Below, one piece after another: positions 1 through 2,206 of a stretch of DNA of 64,000 nucleotides (position 1 is its first letter; the number at the start of each line of letters is the position of its first letter). The translations under genes were made by a program, and so were the position numbers. The DNA lies in contig JAFRAU010000002.1 in assembly GCA_017405245.1 (NCBI GenBank), positions 1-64,000 of the forward strand, given 5' to 3'. The notes under the pieces are model-generated. The model worked only from the letters and a program-made list of their open reading frames with translations. It ran no database searches and was not told where the DNA came from. This DNA is from Candidatus Saccharimonadota bacterium. GTDB taxonomy: Bacteria; Patescibacteriota; Saccharimonadia; Saccharimonadales; Saccharimonadaceae.

Positions 1-165
1 AAAGGAGGTAATAATGCCACAAAGAAAAAGTAATTGTTGCGCTACGTGTTCCTTGGTCCGAAGAAAAGATTTACTATCTCTTTTCCTTTGAGTTAATAGA
101 CCAAAGAGTCTGTTTTTATGATTAGAGTAATTTTTTACTCCATGTAGCTTGTTTGTGCTTGGCAT
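1..165 (-). CDS. possible small ORF, open at window edge
   Basis: An ATG at 165 on the minus strand follows a perfect Shine-Dalgarno sequence (AAAGGAGG, five bases before the ATG) and reads 55 codons without a stop to the window edge. The peptide starts MPSTNKLHGVKN and is rich in Lys, Arg, Ser and His. I do not recognise it. It lies downstream of a promoter, a structured leader and a terminator (210-396), so it would be the gene controlled by that leader. The last 18 bases of the visible ORF are the exact reverse complement of its own ribosome-binding site and start codon, so the ORF may be partly fortuitous. On the other strand the same inverted copy offers a 25-codon ORF (14-91, MPQRKSNCCATC...), equally unrecognised. 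Confidence 0.25.
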   Translation of the reverse strand, partial: MPSTNKLHGVKNYSNHKNRLFGLLTQRKRDSKSFLRTKEHVAQQLLFLCGIITSF

Positions 166-178
166 TATTACCTCCTTT
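1..178. repeat. 18-bp perfect inverted repeat carrying SD and start codon
   Basis: Bases 1-18 and 161-178 are perfect reverse complements. Each arm contains a complete Shine-Dalgarno sequence and an ATG in the same relative position, pointing inward. In a minus-strand transcript the downstream arm could pair with and bury the ribosome-binding site and start codon of the ORF at 165. As DNA, the arrangement also resembles the borders of a small invertible or mobile segment. The left end is cut by the window, so it cannot be seen whether the repeat continues. Confidence 0.8.
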
Positions 179-209
179 GCTGTGCCGAAACCATGCGGAA
201 ATTTGGCAT

Positions 210-234
210 AAAAAAGCAACCAAAATTCTTTGGT
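210..234 (-). terminator. intrinsic terminator of leader RNA
   Basis: On the minus strand ACCAAA (234-229) pairs with TTTGGT (224-219) around a four-base loop, followed by GC and a run of six T (215-210). The stem is short but followed by a clean U-tract. The bases 232-234 are also claimed by an alternative hairpin (see the leader RNA), so termination can be switched off. Confidence 0.6.
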
Positions 235-360
235 CGTCTTAAACTGTAAAACGACCCCGCAAGGCCGCACAGCTAACCAGTATACAAACCAATCAACTTT
301 GCCCTGTGGGGTCGTTTCAGGTTTGTATACTTATCAAAATTTTTACTGGTTTCTGTGCGT
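232..360 (-). promoter_or_regulatory. candidate pseudoknot riboswitch or attenuator leader
   Basis: Transcript on the minus strand, starting about base 360. Helix P1 pairs 359-353 with 272-266 and 351-344 with 282-275. Helix P2 pairs 331-320 with 290-279 (12 perfect base pairs), stacking on P1. Helix P3 pairs 317-308, which lies in the P2 loop, with 258-249, which lies outside P1 (10 perfect base pairs). P3 is therefore a pseudoknot. The 3' strand of P3 can instead pair with 240-232 (9 pairs counting one G-U, seven-base loop), and this alternative hairpin removes three bases from the terminator at 210-234. So pseudoknot formed means terminator free, and pseudoknot open means antiterminator. 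I do not recognise the class; ribosomal-protein autoregulation and a metabolite aptamer are both possible. Confidence 0.5.
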
Positions 361-366
361 AATTTG

Positions 367-396
367 ATTATAGCACAATCAATTTAGAAAAGTCAA
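367..396 (-). promoter_or_regulatory. sigma70-type promoter of the leader RNA
   Basis: Minus-strand -35 TTGACT (396-391) and -10 TATAAT (372-367) with an 18-bp spacer. The predicted start, about base 360, coincides with the first base of helix P1, which supports transcription of the leader as its own unit just beyond the aspS stop codon. Confidence 0.75.
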
Positions 397-403
397 ATAA
401 AAA

Positions 404-2206
404 TTATTCTTCATCGTCTTCTGCGAGGGCGATATGAGCATCAGTGAGCTGGTCGTTATCTACCGTGGATGGGGAGCCCATCATGAGATCAATACCAGAG
501 CCATTTTTAGGGAAAGCGATAACATCGCGGATGTTTTTGGCACCCATTAGTTCCATAAAAATACGGTCAATACCAAAGGCGCAGCCGGCATGTGGCGGAG
601 CGCCAAACTTGAAGGCATTAAGCATCCCGCCAAAACGTTCTTCTACGTATTTTTTATCATAGCCTAGAAGCCCAAAGGCCTTATACATAATATCTGGATT
701 GTGATTTCTGACAGCACCAGAACAGATTTCTAGGCCATTCATAACCATGTCGTATTGGTCTGCTACGATTGATAATTTTTCTTCATCGGTTTTAGCATTT
801 TCTAGTGCGGACAAACCGCCTTTTGGCATAGAAAATGGATTGTGACCAAAGTCTAGTTTTTCTTCCCCGTCATTCCATTCATAAAATGGAAAGTCCGTAA
901 TCCAACATAGTGCAACCACATTGTCATCAGCAAGTTCAAAGTGCTTGGCAAAAGAGATACGGAGTTGGCCTAGAACTTTATTGACCTTGTCTCGCTCGTC
1001 TGCACCGAAAAATACGGCATCACCGTCTTCTGCGCCGGTAAGTTCTTTGATTTTGGCAAGCTCGGTGTCTTTTAAGAATTTTGCGATTGGAGATTTTTCT
1101 GAACCATTCTCATAAATAATGTAAGCCAGTCCTCCGGCACCGAGTTTCTTAGCTTCTTCCGTGAAATTATCAATTTGAGAACGAGTAAGGTTAGCTCCGC
1201 CCTTAACGCAAATAGCCTTAACACAAGGAGATTTGAAAACCTTGAAGTCCGTGTCTTTAAGAGCATCTGTTAAATCTACTAATTCCATGCCATAGCGAAG
1301 GTCTGGTTTGTCCACACCGTACTTCTCCATAGATTCCGTATATGGAATACGTGGAACGTCACTATCTTTTGGAATAAACTTTTTAGCGTACTTTGACACG
1401 ATTTCGAGTTTCTTGCCACCAAAATCAGTTGCGAGAGATTTGATTAATGGCTCTACCGCCCGTCTGACTGTTTCCCCGCTATCTACAAAAGAAATCTCGC
1501 AGTCTAGCTGATAAAAATCACCGTACAAGCGATCAGCTCGTGGGTCTTCATCTCGAAAACACGGAGCAATCTGGAAATATTTAGGAACGCCGCCAACCAT
1601 TAATAGCTGCTTAAACTGCTGCGGAGCTTGTGGTAAGGCATAAAACTTACCTTGATGTAGTCTAGATGGAACGAGAAAATCGCGCGCGCCTTCCGGTGAT
1701 GAGTTAGCCAAAATAGGAGTAGTAACCTCAACAAAATCATGTTCTATCATGTAATTTCTGAGAATCTGGTAGTACTCGGAACGCTTGGAAATGAGACGTT
1801 GCATGGAAGGGCGACGAAGGTCTAGATAGCGATATTTAAGGCGAAGGTCCTCACCAGTCTCTGGGCCATCATCATGCGTATTAACTGGAAGAGGCTCTGA
1901 GCGGTTAAGAAGAGTCAGTGAGTCTACTACGAGTTCAATGTTACCGGTAGGAATGTTCGGATTTCTAAGTTCCTCGGCGCGCTCGCGCATGACACCAGAA
2001 GCAGAGATAACGAATTCATCACGAAGAGTCTCCGCAAGTGAAAAGGCATCCTTAGTATCAGGAGTAACAACTAGCTGAATAATGCCGGTATGGTCGCGCA
2101 AATCGATAAAAATCAGCCCGCCGTGGTCTCTTCTAGAATTAACCCAGCCGGCAACTTCGACTTTTTTTCCTAAATAGTTTTCTAACTCTTGTGACAATAA
2201 TCTCAT
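404..2206 (-). CDS. aspS: aspartyl-tRNA synthetase
   Basis: Charges tRNA-Asp with aspartate in the cytoplasm; class II synthetase of bacterial type. The 600 residues contain, in order, an N-terminal OB-fold anticodon-binding domain (GWVNSRRDHGGLIFIDLRD), motif 2 (RDEDPRADR near residue 215), the GAD insertion domain, and motif 3 near the C terminus (GAPPHAGCAFGIDRI). The length matches the bacterial family (about 590). Whether the enzyme also charges tRNA-Asn cannot be told from the sequence; no gatCAB genes are in the window. TATAAT lies at 2220-2215, eight bases before the ATG, so the message is nearly leaderless and has no Shine-Dalgarno sequence. It is followed on the same strand by the promoter of the structured leader. 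Confidence 0.97.
   Translation of the reverse strand: MRLLSQELENYLGKKVEVAGWVNSRRDHGGLIFIDLRDHTGIIQLVVTPDTKDAFSLAETLRDEFVISASGVMRERAEELRNPNIPTGNIELVVDSLTLLNRSEPLPVNTHDDGPETGEDLRLKYRYLDLRRPSMQRLISKRSEYYQILRNYMIEHDFVEVTTPILANSSPEGARDFLVPSRLHQGKFYALPQAPQQFKQLLMVGGVPKYFQIAPCFRDEDPRADRLYGDFYQLDCEISFVDSGETVRRAVEPLIKSLATDFGGKKLEIVSKYAKKFIPKDSDVPRIPYTESMEKYGVDKPDLRYGMELVDLTDALKDTDFKVFKSPCVKAICVKGGANLTRSQIDNFTEEAKKLGAGGLAYIIYENGSEKSPIAKFLKDTELAKIKELTGAEDGDAVFFGADERDKVNKVLGQLRISFAKHFELADDNVVALCWITDFPFYEWNDGEEKLDFGHNPFSMPKGGLSALENAKTDEEKLSIVADQYDMVMNGLEICSGAVRNHNPDIMYKAFGLLGYDKKYVEERFGGMLNAFKFGAPPHAGCAFGIDRIFMELMGAKNIRDVIAFPKNGSGIDLMMGSPSTVDNDQLTDAHIALAEDDEE

Follow-up and report, generated by a model that had tools for sequence, protein, structure and literature searches.

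A covarying pseudoknot leader RNA family of Saccharibacteria, a candidate transcription attenuator ahead of surface-protein and other accessory genes

Among riboswitches, the SAM-II and preQ1-II-like types form a pseudoknot in the 5' untranslated region (UTR), with one strand common to the pseudoknot helix and the expression platform. T-box, pyr, and trp-type leaders form alternative folds around a hairpin and a U-tract ahead of the start codon, and the S15 and S4 ribosomal-protein leaders are autoregulatory pseudoknots. To our knowledge, almost nothing is known of the way in which Patescibacteria control the genes that serve them on their hosts. No description of a regulatory RNA of Saccharibacteria was found in the open-licence literature; an earlier description elsewhere is possible. 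Here we analyzed the first 64,000 nucleotides, from base 1, of the Saccharibacteria contig C32 (the window), in which a minus-strand leader RNA occupies 181-361, with the end of aspS (404-2206, minus strand) on one side and the start of a gene at 165 on the other. Judging from sequence comparison, it belongs to a family of 5'-leader RNAs, apparently uncatalogued until now, in one Saccharibacteria genus, which includes Ca. Nanosyncoccus alces, and in related genera of its family. A sequence-only reading of the window had proposed a pseudoknot riboswitch at this place. The features of the locus are the following.

367-396, minus strand: sigma-70-type promoter TTGACT-N18-TATAAT with an extended -10 (TGTGC), 11/12 matches
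353-359, minus strand: P1 5' strand CGCACAG, with the extension AACCAGU (351-345) past a small internal loop
332-344, minus strand: A/U-rich unpaired hinge, from the P1 5' strand to the P2 5' strand
320-331, minus strand: P2 5' strand AGUAUACAAACC
308-319, minus strand: P3 5' strand UGAAACGACCCC, within the P2 loop
279-290, minus strand: P2 3' strand GGUUUGUAUACU
266-272, minus strand: P1 3' strand CUGUGCG, with the extension ACUGGUU (281-275)
251-268, minus strand: terminator-like hairpin T, GCGGCCU-UGCG-GGGUCGU (arms 268-262/257-251), then a U-tract
247-258, minus strand: P3 3' strand, the switching strand GGGGUCGUUUUA, containing U4 at 251-248
232-256, minus strand: alternative hairpin P4, 256-247 with 241-232, 10 bp with one G-U
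210-236, minus strand: second terminator-like hairpin (236-217) plus U6, overlapping the P4 3' strand; noticed only in the window copy
176-185, minus strand: P5 3' strand GCACAGCAAA, beside the Shine-Dalgarno sequence, can pair with part of the P1 3' strand (276-267)
171-178, minus strand: Shine-Dalgarno sequence AAAGGAGG
1-165, minus strand: start of a surface-protein gene, its signal-peptide region, truncated where the contig ends at base 1

The strong promoter recognized by the sequence-only reading is present at 396-367, and from its position transcription is predicted to start at ~362-358, the foot of P1; in other leaders, too, TATAAT stands 5-6 nt ahead of P1. P1, which had been described as 15 bp, exists as a 7-bp core (359-353/272-266) extended beyond a 1x2 internal loop by AACCAGU/ACUGGUU. 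P2 (331-320/290-279) is the perfect 12-bp helix that had been reported, and the 10-bp P3 proved to be the core of a 12-bp helix (319-308/258-247) that includes G-U pairs and crosses P1/P2, forming a pseudoknot. The alternative hairpin of the P3 3' strand, previously drawn with 232-240, was recovered as P4, which excludes P3 and T; it is matched by 0.6% of shuffles and has a p of 0.125 in a narrower test. The sequence-only reading missed hairpin T, which excludes the foot of P1 and P3, shares the 3' strand of P3, and has a p of 0.105 for this copy alone, and also P5 (276-267/185-176), which is 9/10 complementary (90%). The terminator that it placed at 210-234 is there as a hairpin with U6 and is seen in the window copy only, and the conserved terminator lies directly behind P1. 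The P1+P2+P3 score of the window leader, from a search in which P1 must lie close to the promoter, P2 must be nested, and P3 must reach from the loop to the bases right after P1, is 75.5 and is reached by 0/1000 dinucleotide shuffles (maximum, 61.5); the nested fold of 181-361 has a z of -5.5. Since promoter-like and terminator-like pattern matches alone occur at chance frequency (6 versus 5.8 and 3 versus 2.5, respectively), the significance rests on the helices and the homologues. Shuffles and homologues rule out chance or an assembly artefact as the origin of the leader.

The gene behind the leader had been taken for a small open reading frame; it is the beginning of a long gene for a surface protein, which the end of the contig truncates. 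Bases 1-178, comprising the Shine-Dalgarno sequence and the gene start, are repeated on contigs C27, C12, and partly C41 of the same genome, which explains both the contig end and the apparent small frame. The 178 bp from the Shine-Dalgarno sequence on are 99% identical among the window, C27, and C12. On C41 the frame continues for 703 codons; it contains Listeria-Bacteroides repeats and matches Fib_succ_major slightly below the curated cut-off, and related paralogues are many per genome in relatives. The shared 5' end, the C41 frame, and these paralogues assign the leader to a large surface-protein gene, and a ribosomal-protein leader is rejected on the same ground, the downstream gene being a surface protein. 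The repeated 5' coding region is a place where assemblies break, as seen at the contig ends of C32, C12, and C41 of this genome (G000) and close to the ends of C6 and C8 of genome G032, so fragmented genomes probably show fewer copies of these surface genes than exist. As a separate observation, window positions 1-19 and 160-178 form a perfect 19-bp inverted repeat, from the Shine-Dalgarno sequence and ATG to the end of the signal-peptide codons. It occurs in five copies in two species, at a spacing of 123 or 174 nt, and could be a hairpin that hides the ribosome-binding site or an invertible segment, in which case the inverted frame would stop early.

Ten leaders were found in the genome of the window (C32, C27, C12, C10, C23, C35, C50, C2, C15, and C37), all of them ahead of surface-protein genes, different in sequence and identical in architecture; further leaders occur in genomes G032 and G021. 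The order of parts common to C32, C27, and C12 is TATAAT, P1, hinge, P2, P3 5' strand, P2', P1', P3', and U-tract. A covariance model built from five leaders, in which the paired positions were those of P1 only (R1), found this leader family in Saccharibacteria genomes, with 54 matches at E<1e-5 in 34/147 genomes of the genus; five of the 54 are training sequences, and the E values are rough. With a further model (R2), the leader was detected in nine genera, that of the window and eight others, all within the window's family, among 393 genomes of the order, and a phylum sample of 380 genomes gave no match outside that family. A pattern scan of named genomes picked out 32 contigs, all from Saccharibacteria and including Ca. 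Nanosyncoccus alces; those isolates with a stated source come mostly from ruminant gut. Two exact pattern scans of viral contigs returned no match. A descriptor scan of ~660 kb of G032 gave many weak chance matches, and its only promoter-led strong match was the already-known leader of a surface gene. Occurrence of the leader goes with the 5' ends of genes that have a -10 element of their own.

The sequence-aware models R1 and R2 do not recognize the window copy. It has the promoter-P1-hinge-P2-P3-U-tract-P4 order of the family (0/1000 shuffles) and precedes the same gene as the clear members on C27 and C12, whose leaders are quite different from it in sequence and score 128-130 bits, both having been among the five used to build R1. 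By sequence the window copy is an outlier, and by architecture, shuffles, and shared gene it is a member. No family of Rfam 15 matches the leader above its gathering score (best subthreshold E, 0.42 and 0.93), which leaves the region covered by no Rfam RNA; the matches within the window are tRNAs only, and at the leader itself no tmRNA or tRNA identity was found.

Covariation, which the sequence-only reading had named as its check, is present. In an alignment (A3) of 57 distinct, related rows, in which P1 was part of the model and P3 was not, 99.3% of P1 cells are paired, with two-sided changes at 5/8 pairs, and 96.4% of P3 cells are paired, with two-sided changes at 8/16 pairs; overall, 14/25 pairs change on both sides. 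None of 500 shuffles reaches any observed measure, and slid registers pair at 32 to 46%. P2 is significant in 60/63 leaders, and the P1-P2 junction has a median 11-nt 5' bulge versus a 2-nt 3' gap (63 leaders). Together, the P1 and P3 covariation, the controls, and the P2 significance establish the pseudoknot by comparative evidence. At the level of sequence comparison, our results demonstrate P1, P2, P3, the U-tract, the mutual exclusivity of the alternative pairings, and the family, whose members are structured 5' UTR RNAs conserved with covariation, as riboswitches are. A "latch" stem, UGCG/CGCA, in the P2 loop was considered and rejected; its sequence is conserved, shows no covariation, and is not significant in divergent leaders.

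The exclusive states overlapping a terminator that had been proposed for the window recur across the family. In most members, T reads GCGACUA-n5-7-URGUCGC-AUUUUU, spans from the P1 foot to the U-tract, and has the P3 3' strand as its 3' arm; T plus the U-tract has p<0.05 in 46/61 leaders and is 96% paired. Its 5' arm GACUA is conserved though unpaired in the pseudoknot. T shows no covariation independent of P3, and at a variable position G in place of A keeps the Watson-Crick pair of P3 and only a tolerated G-U in T, a sign that the constraint on P3 is no weaker than that on T. P4 has p<0.05 in 31/61 leaders and occurs in divergent leaders with different sequences (L114, CCUAGUAGCAC/GUGCUACUAGG; L084, GUAGCGCC/GGCGCUAC; L080, GGGUGC/GCACCC). 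These data support T and P4 as conserved competitors of P3; all three use the P3 3' strand, as in a mutually exclusive expression platform. Median energies are -21.6 kcal/mol for the P3 duplex (before pseudoknot penalty), -10.1 kcal/mol for T, and -11.3 kcal/mol for P4, which as calculated are balanced and in the range of a switch. U-tracts are short (U4-6). About seven leaders (C23, C35, C50, C2, C15, C37, and C6 of G032) have no T and keep only P3 directly ahead of the U-tract; the stem-loop plus U-tract that excludes another conserved helix, the mark of an attenuator, is found in the family and is absent from this subtype.

Transcription attenuation is suggested by the conserved U-tract that comes directly after a helix, the 3' strand of which can pair with several mutually exclusive partners. 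With moderate confidence, we interpret the leader as an orphan cis-acting transcription attenuator that sets a pseudoknot against a terminator and probably decides whether the downstream genes are on or off. Transcription would start at the P1 foot, and P1 and P2 would form a long hinged hairpin whose loop presents the P3 5' strand. When the polymerase arrives at the U-tract, the ~15 nt that follow could pair back with the loop to give the pseudoknot P3; alternatively, they could close the local intrinsic-terminator hairpin T with the preceding sequence or, after further transcription, bind a copy located immediately ahead of the Shine-Dalgarno sequence to give P4. The choice among these exclusive folds would set the mRNA amount of the downstream accessory gene. 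T with its U-tract is the putative terminator, the pseudoknot presumably being the antiterminator (ON) state that prevents T, and a signal, which may be a ligand, a protein, or an RNA, would shift the balance. P3 pairs the T 3' arm up to the U-tract, and for that reason it is not a textbook antiterminator; in the T-less leaders, P3 beside the U-tract might itself terminate, reversing the sign. In the window copy, P4 would block the second terminator-like hairpin (210-236). Counted against the attenuator are this second terminator overlapping P4 and the failure of the covariance models to find the window copy.

The best of the other readings, that P1-P2-P3 binds a metabolite or ion and thereby shifts P3 against T and P4, we consider unlikely. 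The architecture and exclusive helices do resemble riboswitch expression platforms, and conservation is strong in the loop and P3 sequence, UGCGGCUAUUUACGC. However, the letters with the highest conservation lie in the base pairs of P3 rather than in an evident pocket, P1 and P2 are free in sequence with P1 ranging from 7 to 22 bp, and the regulated genes have no common metabolite theme. Of the ligand- or protein-controlled switch first proposed, then, the switch-like cis-regulatory pseudoknot is well supported by the covariation, the lack of Rfam coverage, and the recurring exclusive helices, whereas for small-molecule sensing the gene content indicates no ligand. Somewhat less probable is a translational switch, in which P4 and P5 (the P1 3' strand on the ribosome-binding site) would cover the start region once the pseudoknot opens. 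In many leaders the 3' strand of P4 ends 0-6 nt ahead of the Shine-Dalgarno sequence, the window has P5, and L223 and L235, two leaders of methyltransferase genes, have a P1 3' strand able to base-pair over the start codon, which lowers the probability that this codon is unpaired from 0.61-0.67 to 0.00-0.03. Yet, averaged over 58 leaders, the Shine-Dalgarno sequence is equally accessible in the two states (0.58 versus 0.55), which argues against translational control as the general output. It is improbable that the leader is a constitutive 5'-terminal shield against 5'-end-dependent RNases, without switching: P1 starts within a few bases of the predicted start, and P1 and P2, which are free in sequence, have a very high stability (median, -41.8 kcal/mol), but the conserved T arm, U-tract, and P4 copies would be left unexplained. 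Very improbable is crosstalk in trans, with terminated leaders as small RNAs whose P3 loop pairs with sister P3 3' strands to coordinate paralogues; within one-genome subfamilies P3 strands do cross-pair nearly as well as in cis (C15/C37, 33-35.5 versus their own 35-35.5; C27 with C12, 33.5) and P1 strands mostly cannot, but common descent alone accounts for the cross-pairing.

The genes behind the leaders encode surface proteins, EcoRI-type and N4/N6 DNA methyltransferases, GIY-YIG proteins, type IV secretion system (T4SS) pilins, a class-V aminotransferase, an oxidoreductase, and many proteins without a Pfam match; no ribosomal protein was found among the downstream genes examined. These targets look accessory or host- or defence-related and belong to no single pathway. 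Many leaders, at L163-L182, L221-L230, and similar loci, precede 250- to 520-aa proteins of unknown family, several of which share an N-terminal "(S/N)FEEHM"-like motif, with no Pfam match among those scanned. At L223, L253, L254, L228, and L238, the EcoRI-type or N4/N6 methyltransferase gene behind the leader is closely followed by a second, overlapping or abutting gene, which may complete a restriction-modification or defence system. At L083 (C43 of the window's genome), L087, and L094, runs of ten G lie directly 5' of TATAAT ahead of surface-protein paralogues, and by their sequence these look like slippage-prone, phase-variable promoters. A speculative extension, to which we assign little probability, is that these bacteria have a lineage-specific RNA regulatory system, in which dozens of sequence-diverse, architecturally identical attenuators jointly control the genes for surface antigens, DNA methyltransferases, and secretion pili and may sense host attachment or act on one another in trans through the shared P3 loop.

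The bacteria concerned are tiny parasitic gut Saccharibacteria, episymbionts of the candidate phyla radiation (CPR). Tens of covarying leaders ahead of genes for surface proteins, methyltransferases, and pilins offer an experimental handle, in that they name targets, a switching strand, and the 3' ends to be expected. A hinged hairpin capturing the terminator arm with its loop is an unusual design for an attenuator. Like the SAM-II and preQ1-II riboswitches, the leader is a 5' UTR pseudoknot with a shared switching strand; unlike them, it has P1 (7-22 bp) and P2 helices that are far longer and free in sequence, conservation centered on the pseudoknot helix and terminator, no metabolic regulon, and no Rfam match. 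With T-box, pyr, and trp-type attenuators it has in common alternative folds around a hairpin and U-tract 5' of the start codon, but its competitor is a pseudoknot that takes the 3' arm of the terminator together with the terminator's loop, and no leader peptide or tRNA-binding features were noticed. As in the S15 and S4 leaders, a pseudoknot is the regulatory element, whereas no ribosomal-protein gene follows among those examined. Finally, as with phase-variable surface-antigen promoters, the targets are paralogous surface proteins, some of which carry G-tract promoters; the leader differs in that control, without a repeat tract, would act at the RNA level.
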